From: Rhodospirillales bacterium
Lineage (GTDB): Bacteria > Pseudomonadota > Alphaproteobacteria > Acetobacterales > Acetobacteraceae
Length of the DNA stretch: 33,324 bases
Assembly: GCA_025351925.1 (NCBI GenBank)
Contig: JANXVC010000430.1
Location: forward strand, 1 to 33,324
Reading direction: 5' to 3'
How positions within the stretch are numbered: position 1 is the first letter of the stretch; the number at the start of each line of letters is the position of its first letter. Both the position numbers and the translations under genes were made by a program. Positions 5,199-31,944 of this stretch are shown here, piece after piece. The notes beneath the pieces are model-generated. The model did not search any database. It was not told the DNA's origin and was given only the letters and a program-made list of their open reading frames with translations.

Positions 5199-6383
5199 TT
5201 GACACAGGCGACGTTGAAATTGGCGGGCAACATAAAGGAGACCGTTATCTCGTCAGCGCGCGCAAACATCCCCAGCACGACCAGGGGGCAGCCACTGATC
5301 CGTCCTGCGGTGGAACTGGCATACGCGATCCGGCGGGGAAATCCGGTGGTGGCGCTGCTCGGCATGGACGCGGCACCTGTATCGGCCGCTATCGACGAGT
5401 GCATTGAGCTTCTGCTCGATGATCCCATCCGCGTCATCCGCATTCACGGCATCCCGGGAGTGCCCCTGACGCTGCCGCGCATCGTTGAGGAGCTCGGCGC
5501 AGGTCAGCGAGGCGGGCGGCCGGCGGATGATGACGAGCTGATCGTCCATGTCCTGGCCCGGCGCGGCGACAAGGAGGAGCAGGTTGCCCTCATCATCCAG
5601 CAGGCCGAGCTGCTGCCGCTATCGACGCTTGCGTTCCTTCAGGTCGCCTCGACAGTGTTCGGCACACGAACGCCGCGGCTCCAGCTGATTTTCGCCGGGC
5701 ATCCAAGGTTCGAACAGCTGCTTGTCAGGGACGAACTGGCGGGGCTTCGCGACCGGCTTGACGCGGTGATTCTCGTTGCACGCTTACCGGTCAGCGCAGC
5801 GTCCGCAGCACCGGATCAAGCGGTGCCGGTCCGCAAGGTGGGCCCGCGGCGCATCGGCCTTAGTTTCGGACGAGGTGCGAAAACCCTAGCAGCGCTTCTC
5901 GCGCTGTTACTGGTGATAGGCGCTGCAACGCTGGCGATCAGCCAGCGCTCCGGCCAGCCAATGGGCGTTGGCTCATTCGCCACAACGCGGGCTGTTCCAG
6001 CCCCGGCTGGAACGCCGCCAGCGCCGGCCCGATCACAAGATGTGCCACCGCTGGGGCCTCCGCCGCTAGCCGCCCTACCGCAAACCGCTCTGCCGGAGCC
6101 GCCCCGTCCGCAAGCCGCCGCGCCGCCCAGCAATCGGGACTTCGGTCCAGCGCCGCCCAGTGTTCGCGATCCCAGTCCAGCGCCAACCGTCCCGCGTCCC
6201 GAGCGCGGCGCTTTGCCGAGCGGCGATCAGTTGGCCCGGCTCCGTAGCGAGTTCGACCGCTTCCTCGCGCAAACGGAGTGGGGTTCCAAACGGCTTGGGG
6301 AGGGCGAGCGGGCCCGCCTTTTCAACGAGTATCTTCGATGGAACTACGGTGCAGCGGGTGCAAACCCAGGGCCGCCGCCCTGA
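5199..6383 (+). CDS. ExeA/GspA-like membrane protein with a degenerate ATPase domain
   Basis: This 394-residue protein has an N-terminal domain (about 30-200) resembling the AAA domain of ExeA/GspA-type ATPases, including LQLIFAGHP at 161-169 followed by LRDRLDAVILVARL. The P-loop expected near 52-62 is replaced by VALLGMDAAPVS, with no GKT/S. The Walker B position reads VALIIQQAE instead of hhhhDEA, so ATP hydrolysis is unlikely. A single membrane helix (about 229-247) is followed by a Pro/Ala-rich linker (about 267-340) and a charged periplasmic tail with ERARLFNEYLRWNYG. ExeA proteins have the same order (cytoplasmic AAA, membrane helix, periplasmic part) and act in assembling envelope complexes. 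The TTG start at 5199 is uncertain; AGGG lies about 12 bases upstream. Confidence 0.65.
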   Translation: MTQATLKLAGNIKETVISSARANIPSTTRGQPLIRPAVELAYAIRRGNPVVALLGMDAAPVSAAIDECIELLLDDPIRVIRIHGIPGVPLTLPRIVEELGAGQRGGRPADDDELIVHVLARRGDKEEQVALIIQQAELLPLSTLAFLQVASTVFGTRTPRLQLIFAGHPRFEQLLVRDELAGLRDRLDAVILVARLPVSAASAAPDQAVPVRKVGPRRIGLSFGRGAKTLAALLALLLVIGAATLAISQRSGQPMGVGSFATTRAVPAPAGTPPAPARSQDVPPLGPPPLAALPQTALPEPPRPQAAAPPSNRDFGPAPPSVRDPSPAPTVPRPERGALPSGDQLARLRSEFDRFLAQTEWGSKRLGEGERARLFNEYLRWNYGAAGANPGPPP

Positions 6384-6401: not shown

Positions 6402-7109
6402 TCACCGGCGGCTGGCCAGCATGATCGGATGAGACCGGGCCTGCCGCAGCGGCTGGATTGGGCTTTGGGCTTCAAGAACCCGGGGCGTTGGTGGTGCGCC
6501 AAGCGTGGAGGACCACGCGCTTGTCAGTGACATCTGATCGGCAGATACCGCCTGAGCCCGGGCGGCGCCGGGAAGTTGCGCGAGCACCTTGCGCTGATAC
6601 GCCAAGGCGAGGTCGGGTGTCCGGGAGTGATAGTGGGCAGCCGCCGTGTTCCAATCGCCGGACTCGGCATAGAGTTGGCCAAGGAATTTTGCCGCGTAGC
6701 GCACGTTCACCGCCGGGTCGAAAGCCTCCTCCAGCGAAATGAAGGCGGTCGGATGATGCATGAGATTGACCTGCATGCAGCCGACATCCACGGATGCAAC
6801 ATTGCGCGCCTGCAGCGTTAGCACCGCGGCAATTGCCTCCGACTTCGTGTTGAACGTGTAGCCGCGTCCTTCGGCGTTGATGCTCCAGGGCCACGCCTTG
6901 ACGTTGCCGTCCCGCGGGTCGAGGCGACCGCTCTCAACGCGGCCGATGGCGCTGAGCAGGTTTGGCGGCAGACGCGCGACCGGCACGTAACGGGCGATTG
7001 CCATTTGGCAGAGATCACTCGCATGACCGGCCTCCAAGCGCATCGGCTGCGCGGAAGCCGCTACCGGCATTAGGCCAAGCGCTAGCAATAGACCGCCAAA
7101 TCGTCGCAT
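6402..7109 (-). CDS. Secreted lytic transglycosylase (SLT domain)
   Basis: The 235-residue protein cleaves peptidoglycan glycan strands, judging by its SLT fold motifs: LLSAIGRVESGR with the catalytic glutamate at residue 59, WPWSINAEGRGY, VGCMQVNLMHHP, and FDPAVNVRYAAKFLGQLY, ending with an A-Y-repeat-like AAHYHS segment. A signal peptide (residues 1-20, ending ASA) directs it to the periplasm. The ATG at 7109 has GGAGG six bases upstream; the open frame continues to 7187 without a better site. It converges on the ExeA-like gene with 18 bases between stops. ExeA systems need local peptidoglycan remodelling, so a shared role is plausible but inferred. Confidence 0.85.
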   Translation of the reverse strand: MRRFGGLLLALGLMPVAASAQPMRLEAGHASDLCQMAIARYVPVARLPPNLLSAIGRVESGRLDPRDGNVKAWPWSINAEGRGYTFNTKSEAIAAVLTLQARNVASVDVGCMQVNLMHHPTAFISLEEAFDPAVNVRYAAKFLGQLYAESGDWNTAAAHYHSRTPDLALAYQRKVLAQLPGAARAQAVSADQMSLTSAWSSTLGAPPTPRVLEAQSPIQPLRQARSHPIMLASRR

Positions 7110-7343
7110 CCTGTACCTCCAGACGCCTGGCCGGATCTCCGGCGCAGCTCGAAGCGTCGTATGCCGGCCATACGTTGCGCTCCGCATTCATTATCGGCTC
7201 ATACCGTCTCTGTCAGCGATATTGTTCTCAAAGTATCGCGATCAGCCCGACGAATCCAAGTTTGAGCGCGAGAGGAGATCTGCCATACCGATAAAAACGT
7301 CAAGTAGGACGGTGGACCTCCCTATGTCGCTGGGCATTAGAGA
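7110..7343. promoter_or_regulatory. Divergent intergenic region, start of the EPS locus
   Basis: The lytic transglycosylase and PIG-L genes diverge from this 234-base region. It contains an isolated ribosome-site-like GAGGAG at about 7271 with no frame behind it, and no clear promoter boxes. I see no RNA gene. Confidence 0.35.
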
Positions 7344-11604: not shown

Positions 11605-13059
11605 TTAAACCGCACCGTTTTTTGTCAGGACTGCAGGCAGTGTCTTCATCAAGATGGCAATGTCGTGCCACAAGGACCAGTTGCGCACATACCAGACATC
11701 AAGGCGGACGCGATGCTCGTAAGTCGTGTTGCTGCGCCCGCTGACCTGCCAGAGGCCGGTGATCCCAGGTTTAGCTTCAAAATAGTAGGAAATGTCACGG
11801 CCGTAGCGGGGAACCTCGGCGTCGATAATGGGTCGGGGACCGACCAAACTCATCTCGCCCCGGACGACGTTGAGCAATTGCGGCAGCTCATCAAGGCTAG
11901 TCCGGCGCAGCACCCGACCGATCGGGGTGATACGGGGATCATTGTACAATTTGTGCGTAGCCCGCCATTCCAGATTGGCTTGGGGGTCAGTTTTGAGCAC
12001 CTGCTGCAGCACGACATCGGCGTCGGTGACCATCGACCGGAACTTGAAGCAGCGAAAGGATCGACCGTTCTCACCAATACGCCGATGCCCGAACAGCGCC
12101 GGCCCACCATCGGCGCGGATCAGCAAAGCGAGCGCGAGGAAAAGCGGCGATAGAACCACCAGGAGCAACACCGCGACAAACTGGTCAAACAGCATTTTGA
12201 CGAACCGGCTTACCGGGCGCGCCAGATTGTTGCCATACACGATGAGCATGACGTCGTGGGTAAAGAAATACTGGTTATCGAACGCAGTGACTGGCAGGCC
12301 GTCAACAGCCGGCACGAGCGCGAATGGCACGCGTTCGCGTGAGAAGTCCTCGGCGAGGCGAACCGCATCGCCAGAGACGTCGCCGCGGATTGCGACAACC
12401 GCAAACTCAGCGCCGTGCTGCTCAAGCAGACGGGTCCCGCGACCCGGGCTATGGGGGACGCCGTGCAGGTTGATCGAAGCCACCATCTCATAGCCGAGCC
12501 GGGCATCCGACTGGAAGGCTGCCCGTGTTGACGCGACCGCTGCCTCATCACCGATGATCAGTGTGCGCAGACGCCACATGCCGAGATCGTCGAGGATGGT
12601 ACGCGCAAGATTGCGCATGAGCAGCAAGCAAGGGATCAATGCGATCCAACGCACCACGCTCTCAAATCCGAGAGGCATGCCGTAAGCAACGACACGGATA
12701 TAGCTATCGCAAAGGAAGCCGATCGCGACGCCGGTTGCTAGGCCGCGAAACTCGGTCCAGGTCGGCACTCGAGACGTGTAGTGACCGCGGGCGCCAAAGT
12801 AGGTCACGAGTCCCAGTACGACGAGGACGGTGCCCCAGCCATGCCAACTATAGCCTTGATTTGCAATCTGCCGGAGAGCCCGGTCCAGCGGTGGCAGTTC
12901 GACCGCCATGTGGACCACAAACGCCACGCCGGCAGCAAGGATTAACCCGAGGACATCTGCCGAGAACATTGTCATCAAGCGGACCGTTGCTGGTCTCAGC
13001 AGCGCATTGCGGGAACGGGTTTCCCGCGACACTCCTGGCGTTAGAAAGTTGACATGCAT
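11605..13059 (-). CDS. Undecaprenyl-phosphate sugar phosphotransferase (initiating PGT)
   Basis: This 484-residue membrane enzyme should transfer a sugar-1-phosphate from a nucleotide sugar to undecaprenyl phosphate, the first step of EPS repeat assembly. It has the two-part WbaP/GumD-like layout: several N-terminal membrane helices (to about 150), a central Rossmann-like domain starting LRTLIIGDEAA, a further helix (about 295-320), then the catalytic sugar transferase domain with FKFRSM, RRTSLDELPQLLNVVRGEMS, LVGPRP, and KPGITGLWQVSGRS. The active-site aspartate-glutamate pair is in SLDELPQ. Glucose or galactose specificity cannot be assigned. It is read leftward after the Wza-like gene, 261 bases apart. 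Confidence 0.93.
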   Translation of the reverse strand: MHVNFLTPGVSRETRSRNALLRPATVRLMTMFSADVLGLILAAGVAFVVHMAVELPPLDRALRQIANQGYSWHGWGTVLVVLGLVTYFGARGHYTSRVPTWTEFRGLATGVAIGFLCDSYIRVVAYGMPLGFESVVRWIALIPCLLLMRNLARTILDDLGMWRLRTLIIGDEAAVASTRAAFQSDARLGYEMVASINLHGVPHSPGRGTRLLEQHGAEFAVVAIRGDVSGDAVRLAEDFSRERVPFALVPAVDGLPVTAFDNQYFFTHDVMLIVYGNNLARPVSRFVKMLFDQFVAVLLLVVLSPLFLALALLIRADGGPALFGHRRIGENGRSFRCFKFRSMVTDADVVLQQVLKTDPQANLEWRATHKLYNDPRITPIGRVLRRTSLDELPQLLNVVRGEMSLVGPRPIIDAEVPRYGRDISYYFEAKPGITGLWQVSGRSNTTYEHRVRLDVWYVRNWSLWHDIAILMKTLPAVLTKNGAV

Positions 13060-13320: not shown

Positions 13321-13923
13321 TTAGAACACGCGCTCGAACACTGTTACGACGTCACCGGGCTGTACGAAAGTCTCCCGATTAGCAGCGCCCTCTACCGTTG
13401 ATTGTTGAGTACTGGTACGGACGATCGAAAACCGATTCTTGACTGCGCGATAGGTGAAGCCGCCGGCTACCGCGGCGGCGGTGACGACCGTCATGGCCGG
13501 CTGATAGGGGTATTGTCCTGGCCGCACCACCTCACCCAAGATGAAGATCGGACGATAGTTGATCACCTCGACCGATACGCTTGGATTTCGGTACAACTTG
13601 GACCGGGTGAGAGCCTGGCCCACCGCGGCCTCCAACTGCTTGGGCGTCAGACCGGCGGCATGCACGCCGCCGACCAGCGGCAGTGCAATCTCACCGGCGG
13701 CGTCAACGCGGAACTCCCCCGTCAGCTGTTGCTCACCGAACGTGATGATGCGAATCTGATCGCCTGGTCCGAGCGTGTAGATGCTGGTGTTCACGTCTGG
13801 AACCGGTGGAAGCCCGTCTCCGGGGCTGCTGCAGCCAATGAGGCCGGCGACCGGTGCCGCTGCGAGACCTATCATGGCAACGCGCCGCGACATTGATCCT
13901 GGCCTTATAACCGTTCCACGCAT
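13321..13923 (-). CDS. Wza-like polysaccharide export lipoprotein, short form
   Basis: This 200-residue outer-membrane lipoprotein (lipobox LIGC, Cys31) contains the poly_export domain (TLGPGDQIRIITFGEQQL to about 125) and one SLBB-type domain starting FILGEVVRPGQYPY. It is roughly half the length of E. coli Wza and lacks its C-terminal amphipathic helix that spans the outer membrane. Short proteins of this type are common in alphaproteobacterial EPS systems and are thought to cooperate with a separate outer-membrane barrel. Such a barrel is encoded divergently next door. GGAG lies upstream of ATG 13923 at good spacing; an internal ATG at 13893 is a weaker alternative. Confidence 0.9.
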   Translation of the reverse strand: MRGTVIRPGSMSRRVAMIGLAAAPVAGLIGCSSPGDGLPPVPDVNTSIYTLGPGDQIRIITFGEQQLTGEFRVDAAGEIALPLVGGVHAAGLTPKQLEAAVGQALTRSKLYRNPSVSVEVINYRPIFILGEVVRPGQYPYQPAMTVVTAAAVAGGFTYRAVKNRFSIVRTSTQQSTVEGAANRETFVQPGDVVTVFERVF

Positions 13924-14156
13924 GACTTTCTCCTAATTCCAGCTTCTATCTTAGCACGTTATGGCTTGTTTGGTTGCGCCGTCGAGAGCAACCGCGGCAA
14001 TCGCGACACAATGCGACATAAACGTTGCATCTTGGCCGCAGCAAACATTCATAATCATGGCAAGTCATCGCCAAGCAGCCCGTGTGGCGCCTTTGCCCTT
14101 GACCGCATCCGCACGCTCGTGTCCTTGCAGGAACGATGGATGTCGGCGGAGGGATT
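13924..14156. promoter_or_regulatory. Divergent region between Wza-like and barrel genes
   Basis: Promoters for the leftward export lipoprotein and the rightward barrel gene should lie in these 233 bases. The region near 13950-14060 is mildly AT-rich. TTGACC at about 14099 could be a -35 element, but no good -10 box follows. No RNA gene or repeat is visible. Confidence 0.35.
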
Positions 14157-15506
14157 ATGGGACGGTCAGGAACACGGCGTTACCTGTCGTGTATCGGGGT
14201 CGGCCTACTCGCGCTGGGCGTCTCGTCGGCTGCTCACGCACAGTATGTCGAGACGTACTTCCCGCCGGCGCTGCCAGGCTTCGACCATGATCAGGGCGTA
14301 ACAGTGCTGTCCCGGCTTCGGCCCTTGTATGAGCAGCCCGGCGTGCGGCTCGGCGCCTACACCGTGAACGCGCATCTCGACGAAAGCGTCGGCTACGACT
14401 CGAACATCACCGGAATAAGCCGGGGCCCCAGCAGCGGCTTCGTCAAGACGTCGCCCTCGGTCACCGCCACCTCCAATTGGTCCCGCAACCGCGTCGGGAT
14501 CTCTGCCAGCATGGACAATTACTCGTATTTCAGCGCTCCGGCGCAGAACTATACGAACTACAACATCTCTGTCGGCGGCGGCTACACGATCGGTCGCCAC
14601 GACCTGAACGTCGGCTACTCGCACTTCCGCCAGCATGAGCTCGGCACGGATATCGGGACCGTCGCATCCACCTCGCCCGTGGCCTACGACGTCGATGACA
14701 TCCGCACGGACTACACCTTCGACGCCGGCCGGTTCTCCTTTGTGCCCAACGTTGACTTCCGGCTCTATCAGTTCGGCAACGCGCTTATTATCGGGCAGCC
14801 GGCCAATCAGCAGTATCGCGACCGCACCGTGCTCTCGGGAGGCGTCACCACGCGCTATGAGCTTAGCGACCAGCGCGGCATCCTCGTTGTGTTGCAGGGG
14901 ATCAACTCCCACTATCTGCGACCGCAGCTGGGCCAGCCGAGCAGCAACTCAAAGAGCGTCCTGCTGCTCGCCGGACTCGACTATCAGGCGACCGGCCTAT
15001 GGCGGTATCGCGTGCTGGGCGGCATCGAGGTGCGTGAGTTCGCTTCAGCCCAGTTTGGCACCCGGGTGGCCCCGGTGGCTGAGGCGAGCGTGATCTACAC
15101 CCCGACAGGATTGACGACGCTCACGGGGATCTTACGGCGCGAGATCGAGGATCCGCAGTCCGAGGGCGTTGCCGGATATACCTACACGACCGTCGGCGGC
15201 GTTGTGGACCATGAGCTACGGCGCAATATCCTGCTGCAGGGCCGGGCGAACTTCCAGGCAGCGCAATACCTCCAGGGCAATGGGTCCACCACAAGCTACA
15301 CTCTCGGTGCCGGCGTAAACTGGCTGGTGAACCGGCGCGTGCGTCTCTCGGCCGACTACGACGTCACGCAGCAGAATGGCTCGAACAATGTGGTGTTCAT
15401 CGGCAATCAGGTTGTGAACACGCCGACGGGGCAACGGGTAAACTCGCTGACCACGGGCAGCTACAACCGGAACGTCGTCCTGGTCGGGCTGCATTTCTCG
15501 CTTTGA
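14157..15506 (+). CDS. Outer-membrane beta-barrel protein (BBP2-type)
   Basis: The product (about 449 residues) has a signal peptide ending AHA and a mature chain made of alternating hydrophobic/polar strands ending in aromatic residues, finishing NVVLVGLHFSL, as expected for an outer-membrane barrel. Segments such as LDESVGYDSNI, PSVTATSNWSRN, and DYQATGLWRYRVLGGIEVREF are typical of the BBP2-type outer-membrane proteins associated with EPS loci. With the short Wza-like lipoprotein next door it likely forms the outer-membrane exit route. Start 14157 follows GGAGGG with only three bases of spacing; ATG 14136 is equally possible and changes only the n-region. Confidence 0.8.
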   Translation: MGRSGTRRYLSCIGVGLLALGVSSAAHAQYVETYFPPALPGFDHDQGVTVLSRLRPLYEQPGVRLGAYTVNAHLDESVGYDSNITGISRGPSSGFVKTSPSVTATSNWSRNRVGISASMDNYSYFSAPAQNYTNYNISVGGGYTIGRHDLNVGYSHFRQHELGTDIGTVASTSPVAYDVDDIRTDYTFDAGRFSFVPNVDFRLYQFGNALIIGQPANQQYRDRTVLSGGVTTRYELSDQRGILVVLQGINSHYLRPQLGQPSSNSKSVLLLAGLDYQATGLWRYRVLGGIEVREFASAQFGTRVAPVAEASVIYTPTGLTTLTGILRREIEDPQSEGVAGYTYTTVGGVVDHELRRNILLQGRANFQAAQYLQGNGSTTSYTLGAGVNWLVNRRVRLSADYDVTQQNGSNNVVFIGNQVVNTPTGQRVNSLTTGSYNRNVVLVGLHFSL

Positions 15507-15549: not shown

Positions 15550-16854
15550 CTAATAAGGCGTGCTGTCCTCGAGTGCTTCGCGCATCAGGACGTAGTGCTG
15601 CAGCATCGGTTCCGAAAACGCGAAGGCGTCCGGGCCGATGCTGCGGCATGCTCGCACCGTGCCTGTCTCCTTCAACCGCGCCCACGCATCCCGCTCAAGC
15701 CAGCGATCCGCGATGAAGTGCGCACCCTCGTGCTCCGAGACGATGAAGCGGGCATAGCGGTCCTGCTCGCCGCCGGCAATCGCCCGGAGACTATCAAGCG
15801 TCGTGCGGTCGCGCTCACCCTGGGTGACACCCTGGTAGATCGCGGCAACGCGCGGGTCGGCCTCCTCCACAGCGCGTCGAAACGCAGCGAGCAGGTCGGC
15901 CGCCTCGACCTGCGACGACGCGCGGGCGATCGCCTCGGTTCCCGCATGCAGGCCGAGCAGCTGCGCCACGTAGGGAACGCCGCGGGCAGCGTCGATGACG
16001 GCTTCCCGCACGCTCGGCAGGAACTCAATGCCGGCGTCCCGCCCGCCCTGCACTAAAATCTCATCGATCTCCGCGTCGGATAACAGCGGCAGCGCCAAGC
16101 CGAGGATGTTGCGCTGGATCGAAGGATGCCGCCCAACCAGCTCCTCCAAACTGTCGGAGACGCCGACGATGATGAAGCTGATGGCGGCGCCCCGGTCGGA
16201 TGCCTGCTTGATGGCGTCGGCGAACCAGGTCCGCGTCGCAGAATCCTCCACCCGATCGAACTCGTCGGCGATCAGCACGACATGGCGACCGGCCAGGCGA
16301 CCCGGCAGCGCCGCGATGTCACGCGGCTGGAGGCGGCCGCGCGGCAAGGCCGCCTCACACCCCTCCAGCTCGTCGTCCTGGACAACCGGCGCCGCGAGCA
16401 TGGACTTCGGCAGATCGCGGACGAGGCCGCGCACAATATCCTCAAACCGGCTGTCGAATGAGCAGGTATAACGGCCAACCATATATCCGGAACTGCGGGC
16501 GGCGGAGGCCACGAGGTTGACCAGCGAGGTTTTACCCCGGCCACGCTCGCCGTAGAGCACGACATGCGCCCGGTCGAGCGCGATCGCGCGGAAAATCCGC
16601 AATAGCTCGGTCTGCCTGCCGCTGACCCGGCGCGAGCTGCGCTGCGGGCGGGTCGGCGTGAACACTTCGCGCAGCGCGTGCTGTTGTGAGGGCGGCTGCG
16701 CGGCCACGTCCATTGGCAACGCGCCAGCTTTGCGCGACGTATTCGCGCGTGATGGCACGCTGAGCTGCGGCGATGCCTTTTGCCGGGATGGTGATGAGGC
16801 ATCGTCCGGCACAGGACGCGGCGAACGGCGGAGCATGCGCGTTACGAAACTCAT
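15550..16854 (-). CDS. AAA+ ATPase, ORC/Cdc6- or STAND-like
   Basis: The 434-residue protein has a basic, Ser/Pro-rich, probably disordered N-terminus (1-75), then an SGRQTELLRIF segment, an intact Walker A GERGRGKT (102-109), Walker B VVLIADEFD (192-200), and a sensor-1-like FIIVGVSDS (227-235). The remaining half is helical, with a winged-helix-like end. No membrane helix or signal peptide is visible. Architecture recalls ORC/Cdc6-type or STAND ATPases that act as switches. Its position between the barrel gene and a glycosyltransferase is unusual and suggests a role in EPS assembly or its regulation. The first ATG is 16854; an upstream TTG at 16884 is possible. Confidence 0.7.
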   Translation of the reverse strand: MSFVTRMLRRSPRPVPDDASSPSRQKASPQLSVPSRANTSRKAGALPMDVAAQPPSQQHALREVFTPTRPQRSSRRVSGRQTELLRIFRAIALDRAHVVLYGERGRGKTSLVNLVASAARSSGYMVGRYTCSFDSRFEDIVRGLVRDLPKSMLAAPVVQDDELEGCEAALPRGRLQPRDIAALPGRLAGRHVVLIADEFDRVEDSATRTWFADAIKQASDRGAAISFIIVGVSDSLEELVGRHPSIQRNILGLALPLLSDAEIDEILVQGGRDAGIEFLPSVREAVIDAARGVPYVAQLLGLHAGTEAIARASSQVEAADLLAAFRRAVEEADPRVAAIYQGVTQGERDRTTLDSLRAIAGGEQDRYARFIVSEHEGAHFIADRWLERDAWARLKETGTVRACRSIGPDAFAFSEPMLQHYVLMREALEDSTPY

Positions 16855-16956: not shown

Positions 16957-18231
16957 GTGCGCCTAACATTTGTGAACACGCTTTACCCGCCCTACGGTGC
17001 AGCCGGCGCTGAGACGACGCTTCGCTTACTGGCCGCGCAAATGGTGGATCGTGGACACGATTGCAACGTGGTGACGCTTACGCCGGGCCGGCAGGCGGAA
17101 AACGGCGAGGTTGATGGAATTCCAGTGCACTATCTCCCGCTCGCCAACGTCTTCTGGCCGCATGGGGCTTGTCGGTCCGCGCCGTGGCGTCTGATATTTC
17201 AGGCAATTGAGGCCTATAATCCCGTGATGGGGCGGCGGCTCACGGTACTATTACGGCGCCTCGCGCCCGAAGTTGTGAACTTCCACAATTTGCAGGGGTT
17301 CTCCGCGTCGGCGTGGTCGGCGGCGCGAAGGTTGCAAATCCCAGTGGTCCAAACGTTGCACGACTACTATACGGCCTGTCCGCGGAGTGCGATGTGGCGT
17401 CCCGGTCGCGGCAACTGCTCGTCGCTCTGTACGGAATGCAATGTCTTCGGCAAGCCGCGTCGGGCATTGTCCGATCTTCCCGATGTTCTAACCTGCGTCA
17501 GCCATCGTGTGTTTGACAGATTGACCGGCGCGGGCGCCTTTCCCCGCACGGTTACCGGCCAGCAAACCATACGGATTATCCGCGGCAATAATGCGTCGGA
17601 CACGCTGCCAGGGATTGATCCACCGGTTGCCGGCACGCCGCTCCGTCTTGGCTTCATTGGGCGGCTTGATCCGTCTAAGGGCCTCGAACATCTAATCGAC
17701 GTAGTCGGTCGGCTGCCGGACGGCGCTGTCTCGCTTCATATCGCCGGGACGGGAAAACCTGACTACGCCAGCGCGCTGCACGCGCGTGCGGCTGGAGTGT
17801 CCCATGTTGAGTTCATCGGTCATGCAGCACCGGCAGACTTCTTCCCTTCGATCGACCTGCTGGTTATTCCATCGGTATGGGAAGACCCGTTTCCGCGGGT
17901 GTTCCATGAGGCTTTGGCCTACGGCGTGCCAAGCCTGGTGACGCCACTGGGCGGCCTTTCCGAGGCGATCGAGCACGGCCGCAACGGCTTCCTCATCGCC
18001 GGCACCGGCGCCAACGCGCTGTATGCGAGCCTTGCCGAACTCATCGCCTCGCCTTGGGACCGGGGTTTTGTATTTGCCGAGTGCCGTAAAGCCGCGGCGA
18101 GTTTCTCGCCCTCCCGTATCAGCGGCGAATACGAGGCGGTGCTGATGGCCGCCGCCGCGCGTCGGCCTGTGCCGGATGGCGCCGGAGTACCCTGGCGTGG
18201 CGCCCCTTCCACCATGCCCGCATCGGCCTAA
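16957..18231 (+). CDS. Family 4 glycosyltransferase
   Basis: This 424-residue GT-B fold retaining transferase starts with RLTFVNTLYPPYGAAGAE, a typical donor-side N-terminal domain, and has a Cys cluster (ACPRSAMW to CTECNVF, about 142-160) seen in some GT4 enzymes. The C-terminal domain shows LGFIGRLDPSKGLEHLIDV and the E-x7-E signature in EDPFPRVFHEALAYG, followed by GGLSEAIEHGRNGFL for nucleotide-sugar binding. A GTG start at 16957 with GGAGG six bases upstream is well supported. It is followed closely by a membrane GT2 gene, likely in one transcript. Confidence 0.88.
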   Translation: MRLTFVNTLYPPYGAAGAETTLRLLAAQMVDRGHDCNVVTLTPGRQAENGEVDGIPVHYLPLANVFWPHGACRSAPWRLIFQAIEAYNPVMGRRLTVLLRRLAPEVVNFHNLQGFSASAWSAARRLQIPVVQTLHDYYTACPRSAMWRPGRGNCSSLCTECNVFGKPRRALSDLPDVLTCVSHRVFDRLTGAGAFPRTVTGQQTIRIIRGNNASDTLPGIDPPVAGTPLRLGFIGRLDPSKGLEHLIDVVGRLPDGAVSLHIAGTGKPDYASALHARAAGVSHVEFIGHAAPADFFPSIDLLVIPSVWEDPFPRVFHEALAYGVPSLVTPLGGLSEAIEHGRNGFLIAGTGANALYASLAELIASPWDRGFVFAECRKAAASFSPSRISGEYEAVLMAAAARRPVPDGAGVPWRGAPSTMPASA

Positions 18232-19450: not shown

Positions 19451-21634
19451 TCACGCCGCCATGTTGAGCACCATCACGACCGGCCGGCGCGATGCGGCGG
19501 TGAGCGTCCGAATCGCTTCGCGCACCTCGGCGCGCTTTGCCCGCTTCGCGCCGACCACAAGCACGACCGTATCGACGATATTGGCGAGTACCATCGTCTG
19601 CGTCGCGCTGCCGATCGGCTGGCTGTCCATCACGAGAAGATTGTATTCGTCCCGAGCCTCGGCGATTAGGTTCTGCAGCTGCATCGAGTCCAGAAGCTGG
19701 TTTGCCGCCGGCTGTGCCCCAGCGACCAGCAAGAGATCGAGGCTGGTCTGCCGGTCCTGCTGGACCTGATCCTGCCAATGCTCACGTCCTTGCAGCGTCT
19801 CGACCAGGCCGTTGCTCGGCGGGAGCTTCATAATACGGGCCAGCGAGGGCTCGCGCAGATCTCCCTCCAGCAGCAGCGCACGCAGCCCATCGATGGCCGC
19901 GACACGCGCGAAGGCCGCAGTGATCTCCGCCGCCCCCTCGGCGGCAGCGCTAGAGACAAAAAGCACGCTGCGCGGAACAGACCCCTGTCCAGAGAAGCGC
20001 AGGCGGGTGCGGAGCGACCTTAACGCCTCAGCTTCGGGTCCGCTTGGATTTACGATCACACGCTCGGCCAGTGAGCTTCCACCCGTGAGGCGCGGTATGA
20101 CGGCGAGCGGAGCTAGACCCGTCGCGCTCCTGATGTCGTTGGGTTTTGCAAAACCATTGTCGCGGCGTCCCCGAGCCAGTGAAAGCAGCCCGCCAAAGGC
20201 AAAGCCGCTCAGCATGCCCAGCAACCCGGCCAGCTTCGGCTTGGGGCTCGCCGGGAACGCCGGCGACACGGCCGTGCTGACGACCCGCACGCCGCTCTGC
20301 TCGGGCCCGATTTTCCTCGCCGCGGTCTGCGCCTCGCCCTGCAACAGCGTCTGCAGGACATTGCGCCGCGATTCGGCATCCCGCTCAAGCTGCTGCAGCT
20401 CGGACTGCACCGCGGCGAGGCCTCCGGCGTTTTTTTGCGCGATCTCAAGCTGCCGCTGCAGGTCCGTCTCGCGCGCCCGCGCGGCATCGGCCTGCGCGCC
20501 GAGCGAGGCTGTGACCCGCTGCGCCTCCGCCGCCAACGCACCGCGCAGCGAGGTGAGCTCCGCCTGCGCCGCGCGGTACTGCGGATGACCGACGCCCAGC
20601 GTCGTCGCCAACTGCGCCACATGGCGGTCTGCGGCCGCCTCCTTGTCCCGCAACGCGCTGATCGTGCTCGAGCCGAGCACAGCGGCGTTGTCGTTCGACA
20701 CAACCCCGGTCCGCGCGAGCGCACTGGCGCGCTGGTAATTCGCGACCGCCTGCGCCCGGTCGGCGCTCGCCCGGGTCAGCGCGCTGGAAAGGTCCTCAAG
20801 CTGCTGCTGCCCGACGCTGCCCGCCCGGGTCTGTACGAGGTTGTACTTCTCGCGCGTGTCGGCGATCTTCCGTTCGAGCGCGCTGATCTCGGACCGTGCC
20901 TCGACAACCCGGCGCGATAGTTCGGAGTTGGCGTCGGTGTTGGCGGAGACGCGGCCCTGCGCTTTGTCGGCCATGTAGTGCTTGATCACGCTGTTCACGA
21001 CGCCGGCCGCTGTCTTCGGATCGGTCGAGGTGAACTGAACCAGGATAATCAGGCTTCGATTGTCATTGATAATGCTGAGGTTGTGCAGCAGGCTGCCGAT
21101 GACGCCGTCCTGCAGCACGGCCTGCGGAGCCGGCAGCTCGGGCTTCGTAATGTCGGGTAGCAGGCCGGTATCGAACAGCGGCTGCGCCACGGACAGCGGC
21201 AACGCGCCCGCGATCTTTCGCTTCAGCGTCTCCATAAGCGGTGGCGGCCGCAGCGAGCTGTTGAACTCTGGGTTGGCGATCAGGTTCAGCTCGTCCGCAA
21301 CCTCCTGCAGCAGCGAGCGCGACATCAGGATCTGCACCTCGCTACGGACTAATGGCATCGGGTCCGGCATCGCCTCGCCGCTGAGCGCGCCCTGCAGGGC
21401 CGGAACGGCGAAACGCTCCATGTCGATCGAGAGGGTTCCCGAAGTGGTGTACTGCTTGGGGACCAGCGCGACGGTGTAGGCATAGGCGGCGGCGCCAAAT
21501 AGCAGCCCGAAGCACAGGATCAATGGCCAGTTGCGGCGCAGCGTTCGGAGCAGCTGCCCCGGCGTTACCGCCGCATCCTCCAACGCCGGCGGCCCCTTTT
21601 CGAACCGCTCGTCCAGGAGTGCCAGCTCCGACAT
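19451..21634 (-). CDS. Wzc-like polysaccharide co-polymerase with degenerate kinase domain
   Basis: The 727-residue inner-membrane protein has the PCP-2a layout: helix 1 (about 35-55), a Wzz domain, long periplasmic coiled-coil (about 235-440), a Pro-rich stretch SPAFPASPKPK before helix 2 (about 468-487), and a cytoplasmic BY-kinase-like domain (about 530-727). In that domain the Walker A segment reads SSAAAEGAAE (561-570) where GKS/T is expected, Walker A' reads LLLEGDLR (D to E), and Walker B reads LLVMDSQP. No C-terminal tyrosine cluster is present; it ends VMVLNMAA. It should control chain length and export but probably cannot autophosphorylate. AGGA precedes ATG 21634. Confidence 0.9.
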   Translation of the reverse strand: MSELALLDERFEKGPPALEDAAVTPGQLLRTLRRNWPLILCFGLLFGAAAYAYTVALVPKQYTTSGTLSIDMERFAVPALQGALSGEAMPDPMPLVRSEVQILMSRSLLQEVADELNLIANPEFNSSLRPPPLMETLKRKIAGALPLSVAQPLFDTGLLPDITKPELPAPQAVLQDGVIGSLLHNLSIINDNRSLIILVQFTSTDPKTAAGVVNSVIKHYMADKAQGRVSANTDANSELSRRVVEARSEISALERKIADTREKYNLVQTRAGSVGQQQLEDLSSALTRASADRAQAVANYQRASALARTGVVSNDNAAVLGSSTISALRDKEAAADRHVAQLATTLGVGHPQYRAAQAELTSLRGALAAEAQRVTASLGAQADAARARETDLQRQLEIAQKNAGGLAAVQSELQQLERDAESRRNVLQTLLQGEAQTAARKIGPEQSGVRVVSTAVSPAFPASPKPKLAGLLGMLSGFAFGGLLSLARGRRDNGFAKPNDIRSATGLAPLAVIPRLTGGSSLAERVIVNPSGPEAEALRSLRTRLRFSGQGSVPRSVLFVSSAAAEGAAEITAAFARVAAIDGLRALLLEGDLREPSLARIMKLPPSNGLVETLQGREHWQDQVQQDRQTSLDLLLVAGAQPAANQLLDSMQLQNLIAEARDEYNLLVMDSQPIGSATQTMVLANIVDTVVLVVGAKRAKRAEVREAIRTLTAASRRPVVMVLNMAA

Positions 21635-21795
21635 GTCCAAGGTCCTTTCCAATAAGCCCAACAAGCCGGCCACATCGGGCCAGCCACGGTGACAGATGAT
21701 GCAACGCACCAACAAGGCAATCGGCGCGGGCCGTACAAGGCGATTTAAAGCGGTTGTGATTTCCGGCCAAGTTGCGGTGATGCCATCTAGCCGCC

Positions 21796-23904: not shown

Positions 23905-24873
23905 TCAAGCGTTGCGCTGCAATCCCGCATGCAGCGCCTTGGCGGCCTCCGGCAGGCGGCCGTCGGTGACCTTCGCATCATAGTCCGGCGCGCGGTAGTT
24001 CCAGTAGCAGGCATAGTCCACCGGCCCGCCCTCGCGCATCCACGCCAGCATGTTGCGGATGAATAGTGGATCATCGCCGCCGCCGTGCCCATCGGGCCGC
24101 GTGCCGGTGCCCCATTCTGGAAAGGACCGCGGCTTGCCATGGGTCTTGGCGAAGTCACGGTGCCACCGAAGCCCGGCCTCGTGGTTCAGCAGGTATTGCC
24201 AGCGCTGCGCCGGGTCCTGGATAAGCGGCCAGGACTGGTTGTAGATGTCCAGCCCGACGATATCGACGACATCGTCGCCGGGATAGGCGTCCGCCGTGGG
24301 GCCATCGACCGTGGTGGCGCTCCAGTCGAAGCGGAAGCGCGCGCCCGGCACGCCGCGCATCGCCAGGGCGATCCGCCGCCAGTATGCCCTGAAGTCCGGC
24401 GTGTTGCCGCGCGCGGTCCAAGAATACCAGCCGCCGTTGAACTCCCAGCCGATGCGGATCACGCTGTCGCCGTAGGAGTTCTCGATCAGCTTGCGGGCGA
24501 GCGCCGCGAAATGCTGATCGAAGGCGCCGCGCGCGCCCTGGGCCAGGGTCGGCTGCCCCTCGCTCACCAACATCGGCACTGAGACGATGAGGCTCTTGCG
24601 CCCGGCGTCGCGCCAGCAGCCGCTCATCCACCCGGCCTCGTTGACCATCCCGTTCCACGTCTCCTTCTCAAGGAAGTCGAGCACGACGTCGAGCGGCCGG
24701 CCCAGCCACTTCTCATAAGCGGCGACCTCGGGCACGCCGGTGTAGCCCGCACCGCCATAGGTGCCGATGCGGATCGCGGCAGCCGCCTGCGCCGGAGCGC
24801 CGGGGGCGAAGACCGCAGCCGCAGCCGCGCCGGCCAGTGCACGGCGCGTAAGAATGGGAACCCGGTGTATCAT
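23905..24873 (-). CDS. Tat-exported GH26-like glycoside hydrolase
   Basis: The 322-residue protein has an N-terminal twin-arginine signal (LTRRALAG, hydrophobic to about residue 33) and a GH26-type (beta/alpha)8 domain. RIGWEFNGGWYSW holds the likely acid/base Glu144, and SFPEWGTGTRP the likely nucleophile Glu253. GH26 enzymes cleave beta-1,4-mannans, or mixed-linkage glucans. In this locus the natural substrate is probably the EPS itself. The ATG overlaps the acyltransferase stop by four bases, and GGAG is upstream, so the two are co-translated. A longer open frame extends to 25545 but that part is antisense overlap, not protein. Confidence 0.85.
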   Translation of the reverse strand: MIHRVPILTRRALAGAAAAAVFAPGAPAQAAAAIRIGTYGGAGYTGVPEVAAYEKWLGRPLDVVLDFLEKETWNGMVNEAGWMSGCWRDAGRKSLIVSVPMLVSEGQPTLAQGARGAFDQHFAALARKLIENSYGDSVIRIGWEFNGGWYSWTARGNTPDFRAYWRRIALAMRGVPGARFRFDWSATTVDGPTADAYPGDDVVDIVGLDIYNQSWPLIQDPAQRWQYLLNHEAGLRWHRDFAKTHGKPRSFPEWGTGTRPDGHGGGDDPLFIRNMLAWMREGGPVDYACYWNYRAPDYDAKVTDGRLPEAAKALHAGLQRNA

Positions 24874-26247: not shown

Positions 26248-27534
26248 ATGGCCCAAACGTTCAAAACCGTCGATCCCCCCGCCCTTCGCCCAGCCCGTGC
26301 GATCCCTGTCATGGCACTGCGCCCGACCGCAAAGTGGGGACGGCTCGGCCCCGGCGCATTCACCTGGGCCACGCTGTTCTGCTGCCTCGTTCTGCAGCGC
26401 TTCGCGATCCCGGCTGGCGGCGAGCTCAAGATCAGCGTCGCCACCCCGCTCGTCTTGGGTCTCGCCGTCTGGGCGCTCGCCAGCGGCACGTTGGTAATCG
26501 AGCGGCGGCGCATGGCGCTGTATTTTGGCCTGTGCGCCATGGCCATCTTCTCGGTCGGCAGCCAGATCAACCTGCCACTCGCCATCGCACCGCGCATGAG
26601 CGTCACCTCGCTTGCCTACTGGCTGGCGATCACCGCCTTCGCCGTGCTGCGGTTCCGGCATTCCGTCAGCGAGACCACGTTCTTCCGCATCGTATCGATT
26701 TGCCTGGCGGTGGTCGCAGTCGCAGGCCTCGCGCAGTTCATCCTGCAGTTTGCCGGGATCAGCTTCTTTGCATTCAGCGGCGTCGTGCCCGATAGCCTGC
26801 TGATCGAGGAGCAGTATGCGGTCACGATCCCGATCGACCGCGGGCTCAACCGATCCAACGGCCTCTTCCTGGTCGAGCCGTCGGTGTTTTCTCAGTTCAT
26901 GGCGGTTGGCGTGATCGTCGAAGCGCTGTATTTCCGCCGTGCTGCCTATCTGGCGTTGTTCTTCGCAGCGCTGCTCGTCTCCGTGTCCGGCACCGGATGG
27001 ATGGTGCTCGGGTCATACATCATCGTGCTCGCGGTCAGCTCGGGCGGGCGCGGCCTGCTGGGCGCGATCCTGCTGGCGGCGGCCTGCGCGCTCGCCTTTA
27101 CCGCGTTGAGTTTGGTGCTGCCCGATGTCGCCGATATGATGTCGAGCCGGGTCAGCGAGTTCACGCTGCCGGGCACGAGCGGCCATGAGCGGTTTGTGAC
27201 GCCCTTTTTGGCCTTGCAAACCCTTTATGAGGCGGCGCCCTGGTCGGTAGTCACCGGGGTCGGCCCTGGCGCGTCGGAGCAACTCATCATCCCGTATATC
27301 TATCACCTGAACACGCCGGTCAAAGTCCTGATGGAATATGGAGCATTCGGCTTGGTGCTCTATCTCGGTCTTCTCACGTGGGGGACCCGCACGAAGCGCC
27401 AGGCCATGCTGCTTGCGCCGCTCATGGTGCTGTTGTTGTTAACTGGTGGTTACCACCAGTTCTCGCCAATCCTGTTTGCCGTGTTGCTTATCGGCACGGT
27501 GGCCTTCGTCCATGAGGACTCGACCGGCGCTTAA
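26248..27534 (+). CDS. Wzy-like polysaccharide polymerase (O-antigen ligase family)
   Basis: The 428-residue protein has about ten to eleven hydrophobic helices and a large periplasmic loop (about 330-370, TSGHERFVTPFLALQTLYEAAPWSVVTGVGPG), the layout of Wzy polymerases and O-antigen ligases. The RFxxP and GVGPG-type segments match the family. It should join flipped repeat units at the periplasmic face. Being the only such protein in the locus, it is the best candidate for the polymerase. An ATG at 26311 is an alternative start; neither has a strong ribosome site. A 21-bp palindrome lies near the 3' end of the gene. Confidence 0.82.
   Translation: MAQTFKTVDPPALRPARAIPVMALRPTAKWGRLGPGAFTWATLFCCLVLQRFAIPAGGELKISVATPLVLGLAVWALASGTLVIERRRMALYFGLCAMAIFSVGSQINLPLAIAPRMSVTSLAYWLAITAFAVLRFRHSVSETTFFRIVSICLAVVAVAGLAQFILQFAGISFFAFSGVVPDSLLIEEQYAVTIPIDRGLNRSNGLFLVEPSVFSQFMAVGVIVEALYFRRAAYLALFFAALLVSVSGTGWMVLGSYIIVLAVSSGGRGLLGAILLAAACALAFTALSLVLPDVADMMSSRVSEFTLPGTSGHERFVTPFLALQTLYEAAPWSVVTGVGPGASEQLIIPYIYHLNTPVKVLMEYGAFGLVLYLGLLTWGTRTKRQAMLLAPLMVLLLLTGGYHQFSPILFAVLLIGTVAFVHEDSTGA
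27441..27461. repeat. 21-bp perfect palindrome inside the Wzy-like gene
   Basis: AACTGGTGGT (27441-27450), one central T, then ACCACCAGTT (27452-27461). The two 10-bp arms are exact reverse complements. It lies within the coding sequence of a conserved LLTGGYHQFS region. With only one spacer base it is more like a protein-binding site than a hairpin. Confidence 0.7.
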
Positions 27535-27618: not shown

Positions 27619-28005
27619 ATGCGACAGCCAGATCGGTTCAGCCTTGACCCTAGCCTAACCCAAGCTCCTTGGCAGCAAAGGGCTACGTTTTTTATAACCA
27701 TCAGCGTTGTAGGCACAGTTCTTGCAGTAGCTGTGCTAATATTTGATGGCTGGGTGGATGCGCTGGCAATTTATATTATTTGTTCACTTATTTTAGCGAT
27801 ACTGCTGTCCCGCTTCGCCGCGCGGCCGGAACAACTGCGCGCCGAACCTCTTGCTTTCGGTGGGGCAAGAAATCCTGGCAACTCCCAGCTCGGCTTTTTT
27901 TTCAAACGGATATCTTTGTTCCCTCCTAAACGCGCGCACCGTCCGCCGGATTCGAACAATGTGGTTCCGCCCAGCGGACTCAGCAAAGTAACACTTACGG
28001 ATTGA
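27619..28005 (+). CDS. Small two-helix membrane protein of unknown function
   Basis: The 128-residue product has two predicted membrane helices (about 23-43 and 48-65), a basic residue cluster, and a Pro-rich hydrophilic tail. No family is recognised. The ATG at 27619 follows AGGACGG at a reasonable distance; a start at 27589 is possible. The first half is clearly AT-richer than neighbouring genes, suggesting a different origin or relaxed selection. Its 3' end overlaps the convergent flippase gene by 11 bases. It could be a spurious frame in the second half, but the helices argue that at least the first half is real. Confidence 0.5.
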   Translation: MRQPDRFSLDPSLTQAPWQQRATFFITISVVGTVLAVAVLIFDGWVDALAIYIICSLILAILLSRFAARPEQLRAEPLAFGGARNPGNSQLGFFFKRISLFPPKRAHRPPDSNNVVPPSGLSKVTLTD

Positions 28006-29515
28006 TCGACTCAGAGTGCTGTCCCGGACGCAAGGTGTAGTGAAGGCGCCAAAGGTCACGCAGCATAAGGTTCCCGGCGGGAAGGCACGCCAGCACCATG
28101 GCCGTCGCCCCATAGGACCCAACGAGAGCGGCCGCTAGCCCCATAACACCGGGGGGCCACATCCCACCGGGAAGCAGCGCCAGAATAATGCCGGCTCCGA
28201 GAGCGGCGAATGCGATTGGGGAGATGGTGCCCAGCAGGTCACCGAGGCGCACCGGCCCGCTGCGCGTCACCGCCCAAAACAGCAGCGGCGCCCCGAGCAA
28301 CCAGGCAAAACCGGCCGATGCGGTCGCGACGCCGACGGGACCCCATGGCAGGCCGACAATGAACGAAACCAGCACGATCCCCGACCCGACCGCACCCCAG
28401 ATGAGCTGCTCGCGCGCCCGCCCCTGACTGATGAACAGCCAGGTGATCCCGTTGTTGACGGGCAGCAAAAGGGATCCCACGCCCAGCGCAGCAAAAATCG
28501 GCCCGGCCGCCTGCCACCGCGCGCCGAGCAGCGTGACGATGACCTCATTGGCGAATACGACGCCCCATACCAATCCCGGCAGCGTCACCAGCAGCAGCGC
28601 CCGCAGCACCTGCCGGAAGGTGTTGCGGTAGCGGTCGGGCTCGGTCTGCAGCCGTGACAGCAACGGCACGGTGATCCGGGTGAACGGCGTCGTGAGCTGC
28701 ATGATCGAAGGCAGCAGCAGCCGGAATGCCCGGTTATAGAGGCCGAGTGCCGCGACTCCGCTGGCCCAGCCGATGAGCACGTTGTCGAGGTTGAACGAGA
28801 AGTAGTTGACGAGGTTATAGCCGGTCACGTTGCCGCCAAAGCGGAGCAGCGGGGCCACGCCGGCGTCGAAGCGGGGCCGGCCGGGCCGCCAGCCGGAGGT
28901 GAGCCAGGCGGCGGCCAGGTTGAACGCATTATTGGCGACCTGCATCGCCACCAGCGACCAGTAGCCCAGGCCGTTCCAGGCGCATAGGATGCCGACCACG
29001 GCCGACGCAGCGGTGCTGCCGACGTCAATCGCGGCGAGGGCCATGAATTGCAGCCGGCGGTTCATCAGCGCCATCTGCTGCGCTGCAAGGCCGCCGAGCA
29101 CGAGCGGGATCGCCAGGCAGGCGGTCACTGCCATGGTCTTTGGCTCGTTGTAGAACGTTGCAACCAGCGGCGACGCGATGAGCATCAGAACAGCGAGCCC
29201 CAGGCTGACCGCCACGTTGATCCAAAACAGTCCGGAGAGCTCGCGATGGGTCAGCGTTGGGCGCTGGATCACCGCCTGCGCCAGTCCCAGCTCGGCAAAG
29301 AGCTGGACGAGGCCGATCAGCGGCGCCACCATCGCGACGATGCCGAACTGCTCTGGGGTGAGCAGGCGGGTGAGCGCGATCTGCGCCGCGAACTGCATGA
29401 GAAAGCGGATGCCCTGCGCTCCAAAGGTTGCGGCGGCGCCACGCACGGAACGGCGCTTGAGGTCCGCGTGATCGGAGATCTCCTCGCCGAAATCCAGATG
29501 GATATCGTCGGTCAC
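27995..29515 (-). CDS. Wzx-like flippase (polysaccharide exporter family)
   Basis: The 506-residue protein has about 12-14 hydrophobic helices and typical MOP-superfamily segments: RGAAATFGAQGIRFLMQF, LTRLLTPEQFGIVAMV near the N-terminus, YNLVNYFSFNLDNVLIGWASGV, and LGLYNRAFRLLLPS. It should move undecaprenyl-linked repeat units across the inner membrane. The GTG start at 29515 overlaps the HAD protein stop by four bases (GTGA), so it is probably co-translated with that protein. It converges on the small membrane protein. Confidence 0.88.
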   Translation of the reverse strand: MTDDIHLDFGEEISDHADLKRRSVRGAAATFGAQGIRFLMQFAAQIALTRLLTPEQFGIVAMVAPLIGLVQLFAELGLAQAVIQRPTLTHRELSGLFWINVAVSLGLAVLMLIASPLVATFYNEPKTMAVTACLAIPLVLGGLAAQQMALMNRRLQFMALAAIDVGSTAASAVVGILCAWNGLGYWSLVAMQVANNAFNLAAAWLTSGWRPGRPRFDAGVAPLLRFGGNVTGYNLVNYFSFNLDNVLIGWASGVAALGLYNRAFRLLLPSIMQLTTPFTRITVPLLSRLQTEPDRYRNTFRQVLRALLLVTLPGLVWGVVFANEVIVTLLGARWQAAGPIFAALGVGSLLLPVNNGITWLFISQGRAREQLIWGAVGSGIVLVSFIVGLPWGPVGVATASAGFAWLLGAPLLFWAVTRSGPVRLGDLLGTISPIAFAALGAGIILALLPGGMWPPGVMGLAAALVGSYGATAMVLACLPAGNLMLRDLWRLHYTLRPGQHSESINP

Positions 29516-31623: not shown

Positions 31624-31944
31624 TCCGGTTGCCGTAACGCGGGCGGGCCGCCGCCGGAAGCGTCTTGGCGCTCACGAATGCGCGGGCACCCCGGTTGAGG
31701 ACCCAGCGCCGCACGGCCGTCTCCGCCGGCGTGCAATCATGCAGTGACCCCCTTAGAGCTCGCGATAGCATCTTGGGGGCCGCATGGACGCAGTCTCTTC
31801 ATGAGTTCTAGCGCCAACTGTCAAGTTTTATCGGTTAATGTTTCCTTAATTGGAAAAATGTAGAACCGGTACTTTCTCGATTGTGCAAAATACCTCGATC
31901 AGGGAGAAATATCCATATATTACGGAAAAGTGAGCACAGGTTCT
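31624..31944. promoter_or_regulatory. Divergent upstream region of the HAD and GH26-CBM genes
   Basis: These 321 bases sit between two divergent starts. The last 120 bases are AT-rich, with an imperfect palindrome TTTCC-TTAATT-GGAAA at 31841-31856 that could be an operator. A CCCCC/GGGGG pair lies at 31748-31779. AGGGAG at 31901-31906 is a good ribosome site but no canonical start follows within ten bases. No RNA gene is seen. Confidence 0.4.

Follow-up and report, generated by a model that had tools for sequence, protein, structure and literature searches.

What part an AAA+ ATPase might play among genes for exopolysaccharide (EPS) export is the question raised by the locus analysed here, which lies in a 33,324-nucleotide stretch of DNA (the window; contig JANXVC010000430.1) from an Acetobacteraceae member of the Rhodospirillales. 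The locus looks like one of the Wzx/Wzy type. It encodes a WbaP-type initiating phosphotransferase (11605–13059, minus strand; TIGR03022 above cut-off), a Wza-type export protein with Poly_export and SLBB domains (13321–13923, minus; Pfam), a BBP2 outer-membrane barrel (14136–15506, plus; Pfam, E = 7.8e-46), GT2 and GT4 enzymes, a Wzc-like protein, a Wzx-type flippase (27995–29515, minus; domain match) and a Wzy-like polymerase or ligase (26248–27534, plus) with a weak Wzy_C match (16.3 bits, below cut-off), along with a Core-2/Branch-type transferase, a PIG-L protein, an acyltransferase and GH26 proteins. No low-molecular-weight phosphatase came up in the Pfam scan of 24 window proteins, a set that leaves small ORFs outside. 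The ATPase gene is convergent with the BBP2 gene and divergent from a GT4 gene (16957–18231, plus), in agreement with the initial annotation, which placed it beside the barrel gene and opposite a glycosyltransferase and suggested that it may supply the switch or energy function for export or chain-length control.

The ATPase ORF runs on the minus strand from an ATG at 16854 to a stop at 15550 and encodes an AAA_16/nSTAND1-type protein of 434 residues. Read from the translation, its Walker A motif is GERGRGKT (residues 102–109; 16528–16551, minus) and its Walker B motif VVLIADE, in the context VVLIADEFDR (16261–16281, minus). Across 18 aligned sequences R104, G105, G107, K108, T109 and S110 of the Walker A region and D197 and E198 of Walker B are invariant; some relatives have Ser, Thr or Ala in place of the first Gly of Walker A. 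Pfam scores exceed the gathering cut-offs for AAA_16 (37.0 against 32.6 bits), AAA_22 (35.9 against 27.0) and nSTAND1 (28.9 against 27.1). The protein is thus a P-loop ATPase of the AAA_16 group, by score and by its intact Walker motifs, and its annotation as an AAA+ ATPase with both motifs intact is confirmed. The further description as ORC/Cdc6- or STAND-like agrees in its second half with the nSTAND1 core, which is matched above cut-off; ORC1/Cdc6 identity was rejected, the curated models TIGR02928 and PRK00411 not being matched by the window ATPase at E values up to 0.1. Three of four relatives scanned do match ORC1/Cdc6 models, far under cut-off. A C-terminal repeat or effector domain is part of the definition of STAND NTPases, and the Pfam matches of the ATPase include none. 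TIGR03015, the XrtA/PEP-CTERM-associated ATPase, belongs by its name to a system with EPS genes among its components; this identity was also rejected, as the model is not matched by the window ATPase at E values up to 0.1, and no NCBIfam cut-off is passed. A phmmer search of the PDB gave nothing useful, a profile of the ATPase matched RuvB partially and, in one case, ClpC, and an AlphaFold2 model built from four input sequences (pLDDT 36.6, pTM 0.28) is too poor to serve as evidence.

The initial annotation called the ATPase soluble. That label is doubtful because the protein begins with a basic amphipathic stretch, picked out by eye (MSFVTRMLRRSPR; 16816–16854, minus), which precedes a linker and is a possible membrane anchor. 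As judged by eye and from predicted starts, most ATPases of the EPS clade have such a short basic amphipathic N-terminus followed by a linker of ∼35–100 residues (longer in G642), and in relatives from outside EPS loci the earliest possible start lies ∼11–54 residues ahead of the domain. It is possible that the window ATPase is tethered to the membrane through this N-terminus.

The Wzc-like protein (19451–21715, minus) is a PCP-2a co-polymerase with a pseudokinase domain; its start codon is uncertain, with an internal ATG near 21634. Wzz and GNVR are matched above the Pfam cut-offs, and TIGR01005 with E = 3.9e-78, yet below the cut-off of that model. It shares with E. coli Wzc and the other canonical PCP-2a BY kinases the succession of Wzz, GNVR and kinase-like C-terminus, but differs from E. 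coli Wzc in the loss of the Walker A Lys and the tyrosine tail. In place of GxGK[ST] the alignment shows a degenerate Walker A, SSAAAEGAAE (19925–19954, minus), with Ala at the Lys position, and there is no Tyr at all in the last 45 residues, so that the protein fits a PCP-2 with a joined BY pseudokinase, a Wzz/GNVR part followed by a kinase-like domain without catalytic motifs, rather than a canonical BY kinase. The Walker B Asp is retained in the window protein and missing from several relatives. The earlier claim that this protein lacks a working nucleotide site is borne out by the Ala that replaces the Walker A Lys. With both the ATP-binding Lys and the tyrosine tail lost, the Wzc-like protein would be unable to run the usual autophosphorylation cycle, to which the assembly and disassembly of co-polymerase octamers is generally attributed. 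Comparison of the window with two congeners, in which dS is high (0.6 to 1.35), gives a dN/dS of 0.22–0.27 over the co-polymerase part, as against 0.09 over the kinase-like part and 0.07 over the ATPase domain. Purifying selection acts strongly on the ATPase and on the kinase-like domain; the latter is therefore kept and not decaying.

The ATPase was described initially as rarely part of Wzx/Wzy loci, which needs correction. Searches at increasing taxonomic depth matched it in 29 of 299 genomes of the family (E ≤ 1e-10; 32 of 397 with a profile, E ≤ 1e-40), 10 of 385 of the class (E ≤ 1e-20) and eight of 398 of the phylum (E ≤ 1e-30), the last two counts including its own genome, where the window ATPase is the sole match. 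The family searches thereby reject the idea of an ATPase unique to the window locus, and it is not a one-off because it recurs in alphaproteobacterial EPS loci. Its closest named relatives (85–86% identity) are from two uncultured Acetobacteraceae MAGs and a lichen Rhodospirillales MAG. The closer members, from ∼41% identity upwards, lie mostly amid relatives of the window EPS genes, with the order WbaP, ATPase, Wzc, GT2, GT4 recurring in several loci; the exceptions are two outside any EPS locus seen (G026, G137) and an ambiguous one (G294). No EPS genes were seen around the distant relatives in neighbourhoods L044 to L048, L069, L146 to L151 and L268, and the first six of these neighbourhoods together with L146 and L150 are those for which identity to the window ATPase was measured (24–30%). 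Some distant relatives are plasmid-borne. Nine plasmid records match the ATPase, that of Novosphingobium sp. ES2-1 being the one examined. One congener (G002) carries a second, divergent relative (L048:10457–11710; 26% identity) with no relatives of the window EPS genes nearby, and in G106 (L067:10752–14264) the ATPase adjoins a 1170-residue protein with a glycosyltransferase-like part, with no nearby Wzc.

Co-occurrence of the ATPase with P-loop-less Wzc proteins had been set beforehand as the test of the proposal. TIGR01005 was searched against 29 ATPase-bearing genomes (E ≤ 1e-15; 28 matched), six further ATPase-bearing genomes from the class (E ≤ 1e-8) and 40 ATPase-negative genomes of the family (E ≤ 1e-15; 20 matched), weaker matches not being counted in any of the three sets; most of the negatives were defined by a family search in which no more than five candidates from each genome were scored. 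Kinase domains were collected as six-frame ORF matches (E ≤ 1e-5), and an alignment of them gave the residue that stands at the Walker A Lys position; entries shorter than 150 residues or lacking the motif region were dropped, among them a split, unlinked Lys-less entry of G274 and fragments of G002, G005 and G642. A kinase counts as linked if ∼10 kb or less separates it from the ATPase, and two were counted across contigs: in G020 the ATPase is split over two contigs, one piece of it beside Wzc, and in G028 a co-polymerase start lies beside the ATPase and the remainder, taken as the same gene, at the end of another contig. G694 and G744 were examined around the ATPase only and contribute no unlinked entries.

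Of the Wzc kinase domains linked to the ATPase, 18/19 are Lys-less (17/18 without G028), against 2/25 unlinked kinase domains of the same genomes (Fisher p ∼3e-9, uncorrected for kinship). The unlinked domains of other ATPase-bearing genomes are Lys-less in 7/35 cases, and those of ATPase-negative genomes in 3/31, one of the three with Arg and one of the core type described below. At least three Tyr in the last 45 residues occur in none of the 19 linked kinases, in 60/79 unlinked Lys-bearing kinases and in none of 12 unlinked Lys-less ones; tail loss tracks Lys loss rather than linkage alone, because even the unlinked Lys-less kinases have no tail. The linked exception belongs to another family (G445), where the Wzc keeps a REGKTT P-loop and its final 45 residues are free of Tyr. 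The core-type Lys-less Wzc of G067, whose frame runs off the contig end, was counted as unlinked, and no ATPase was found in that genome. In G642 the ATPase lies in a Wza/barrel locus and the nearest Wzc match is at a distance of ∼176 kb; Lys is retained in all four kinase domains scored for this genome. The ATPase of G106 is accompanied by just two Wzc kinase domains, Lys-bearing and encoded elsewhere in the genome, and G120 yields a fragment of the ATPase without any match to TIGR01005. The contigs that carry the ATPase in G002 and G153 stop ahead of any Wzc, and the Wzc proteins found elsewhere in these genomes keep Lys. A separate Lys-less Wzc-like group unlinked to the ATPase was seen in G022, G542, G026, G137 and G281 (L210, L153, L070, L123, L071, L118, L074).

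A second sample of seven neighbourhoods in six genomes from the phylum search gave the same picture. Five kinase domains, from four genomes of other families, lie no more than 10 kb from the ATPase; all are Lys-less (four with Cys, one with Ala), and the exosortases adjoining two of them have XrtV as best match, its cut-off being exceeded by one and narrowly missed by the other. On plasmid p2 of Novosphingobium sp. ES2-1, an XrtV EPS locus encodes an 'ATP-binding protein' (WP_082013534.1) with the same ATPase domain models as the window protein (31% identity over 65% of the length) and, ∼8 kb away, an annotated CpsD/CapB tyrosine kinase that reads AGTGCTF and has no tail, the one kinase of this locus and Lys-less. 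That locus resembles the window in its Lys-less kinase and differs in that the PCP and kinase genes are separate and an exosortase is present. The five phylum-sample kinases are, by eye, as tail-less as the Novosphingobium CpsD. The pairing set as the test thus held again, in 6/6 cases, and the two samples together give 24/25 linked kinases that are Lys-less; the outcome named beforehand as refuting the proposal, the ATPase beside a normal Wzc kinase, occurred once, in G445, although the Wzc there has no tyrosine tail. A plasmid search with a Lys-less kinase as query returned general CpsD proteins and was left unused. In G1078 the ATPase lies in a sugar-polymer locus without nearby Wzc, on a stretch that stops close to the contig end. 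EpsG-like pseudokinases in two exosortase-bearing loci (L264:2076–2987; L265:15917–16789) have an N-terminal match to an MshE-related c-di-GMP-binding motif, at 46.5 and 35.0 bits respectively, one above and one below the cut-off of 38.

Two quick trees, both with many open forks, place these kinases relative to each other. In the first, the linked Lys-less entries form a core group of 15, which adjoins Lys-bearing kinases, and a group of three (G281, G315, G744); in the second, made with the five new sequences and without three long-branch ones, two of them unlinked and Lys-less, the new sequences form a third, well-supported group. The starred branches force at least three label changes. The number of independent Lys losses is uncertain because the deep branching is poorly resolved, and the census counts are not independent because 15 of the 18 linked Lys-less entries share one tree group. 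With these bounds, the association of the ATPase with Lys-less Wzc in alphaproteobacterial EPS loci is well supported.

A different kind of link comes from G187, in which a single 942-residue open frame without a stop joins a Wzz-like part to the ATPase in the order membrane segment, Wzz-like stretch, membrane segment, ATPase (segments by eye), with no kinase domain. The ATPase part is 48% identical to the window ATPase; the Wzz-like stretch matches TIGR01005 with E = 9e-7 and Wzz with 15.2 bits, both below cut-off, and in its middle the co-polymerase part cannot be recognised as such. A WbaP-like gene precedes the fusion, which was found in one of 17 genomes of its genus, and G187 has a Lys-bearing Wzc elsewhere. 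This fusion points to a direct role of the ATPase at the co-polymerase.

Comparable components have been described. In the promonan cluster of Sphingomonas sp. LM7, according to the available text of PMC11340318, prmE carries an AAA+ ATPase annotation, sits between the Wza and Wzz genes and is essential for EPS, its in-frame deletion being EPS-minus, and the authors call it an ATPase new to polysaccharide assembly. By description, PrmE (BXU08_RS00370) is like the window ATPase in its setting, a Wzy-type EPS locus that also has genes for an outer-membrane barrel, Wza, Wzz and a CapB-like protein, whereas PrmG (BXU08_RS00380) of the same strain is taken by its authors as a bona fide BY kinase (PMC11340318). 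The BY pseudokinases EcpK of Myxococcus and HfsB of Caulobacter serve PCP-2 co-polymerases without kinase activity; PCP-2 proteins with a joined pseudokinase are also listed, and how BY pseudokinases stimulate the co-polymerase is a question posed in the same source (PMC12004946, as far as its available text goes). EcpK and HfsB share with the window Wzc-like protein a kinase-like domain without catalytic motifs or tyrosine tail and the service to a PCP-2; they differ in that a scaffold model has been published for them and, in the part of the source available, a partner ATPase is unmentioned (PMC12004946). Closer to the window in taxonomy, the Wzc of Gluconacetobacter diazotrophicus is reported to have Walker A and a tyrosine cluster (PMC8620434, available part). 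The word 'ATPase' was not found in PMC1569441, and among the matches listed, in a search that covered few subscription journals, there was no paper pairing such an ATPase with a pseudokinase co-polymerase. BY pseudokinases are thus already known, and their pairing with this ATPase appears to be new.

These observations incline us, with moderate confidence, to the reading that the window ATPase is the partner that drives a phosphorylation-free PCP-2 co-polymerase cycle. Intact ATPase motifs, loss of the kinase motifs, linkage in several lineages, one fusion and purifying selection on both partners are the parts of this reading that the sequences show; the membrane tether, the docking and the ATP cycle are what we infer. 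The Wzc-like protein would retain its kinase-shaped cytoplasmic domain as a pseudokinase, the amphipathic N-terminus would hold the AAA_16 ATPase at the inner membrane, the ATPase would dock on the co-polymerase or its pseudokinase domain, and its ATP binding and hydrolysis would act as the switch that resets the co-polymerase in chain-length control and export. The suggestion of a switch or energy function is partly supported by the linkage to Lys-less kinases and by the Wzz–ATPase fusion, and has its counterexample in G445. The driving role falls short of an established mechanism because of G445, G642, G106 and G120 and the kinship of the core sequences.

The ATPase could instead belong to the same EPS pathway and act on WbaP, a glycosyltransferase, Wza and the barrel or regulation, leaving the pseudokinase as a lone scaffold. 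EcpK and HfsB, described as working without kinase activity (PMC12004946, available text), provide a precedent for such a scaffold, in six loci (L010, L057, L058, L060, L062, L063) the neighbour of the ATPase is WbaP, and Wzc either flanks the ATPase on the opposite side or lies on a separate contig, and G642 and G1078 have it in sugar-polymer loci without nearby Wzc. We nevertheless regard this as rather unlikely, since the G187 fusion puts the ATPase on a co-polymerase-like protein and the correlation with kinase motif loss, unexpected if the role lay elsewhere, recurs in three tree groups.

An explanation without any functional link, in which ATPase and Lys-less Wzc travel together as a locus inherited or transferred as a block, draws on the concentration of linked Lys-less sequences in the core group and on the poor resolution of the deep branches between the two other linked groups and the unlinked Lys-less group. 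It is improbable given that those two groups show the same pairing in other gene orders, that one fusion exists, and that the ATPase and the kinase-like domain are both under strong purifying selection. That a STAND-type defence or signalling ATPase is in the locus by chance seems very improbable: the nSTAND1 score and the distant relatives at 24–30% identity where measured, seen without EPS genes and in part on plasmids, would suit it, but the EPS members have a longer N-terminal extension than those relatives and lie in EPS loci.

If the ATPase does drive the co-polymerase, it would be a candidate energy source for pseudokinase co-polymerases that cycle without tyrosine phosphorylation, and it may have taken over the driving of export in many alphaproteobacteria. 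Some proteins that carry a tyrosine kinase annotation in these loci are predicted not to be kinases, an example being the CpsD encoded on plasmid p2 of Novosphingobium sp. ES2-1. More tentatively, and with somewhat less than even confidence, we suggest a third way to run a PCP-2, in which the pseudokinase serves as a dock and a separate, membrane-tethered AAA+ ATPase supplies the assembly cycle, across EPS and XrtV systems; if true, this would amount to a conserved phosphorylation-free export motor in alphaproteobacteria.

Other genes of the window deserve mention in their own right. A second ATPase-like protein (5199–6383, plus), which lacks Walker A, has a single apparent membrane segment and carries a Pro-rich tail, is the source of the weak TIGR03015 match in the window (E = 0.012), its AAA_22 score being below cut-off; an SLT transglycosylase gene (6402–7187) adjoins it, and a relative with 47–48% identity is present in two congeners. 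The EPS locus has two GH26-type glycoside hydrolases (23905–24873, minus; 31930–33324, plus), the second of which carries a CBM60 module and extends past the contig end, and it encodes a 703-residue protein (29512–31623, minus) with a weak HAD-like match below cut-off.
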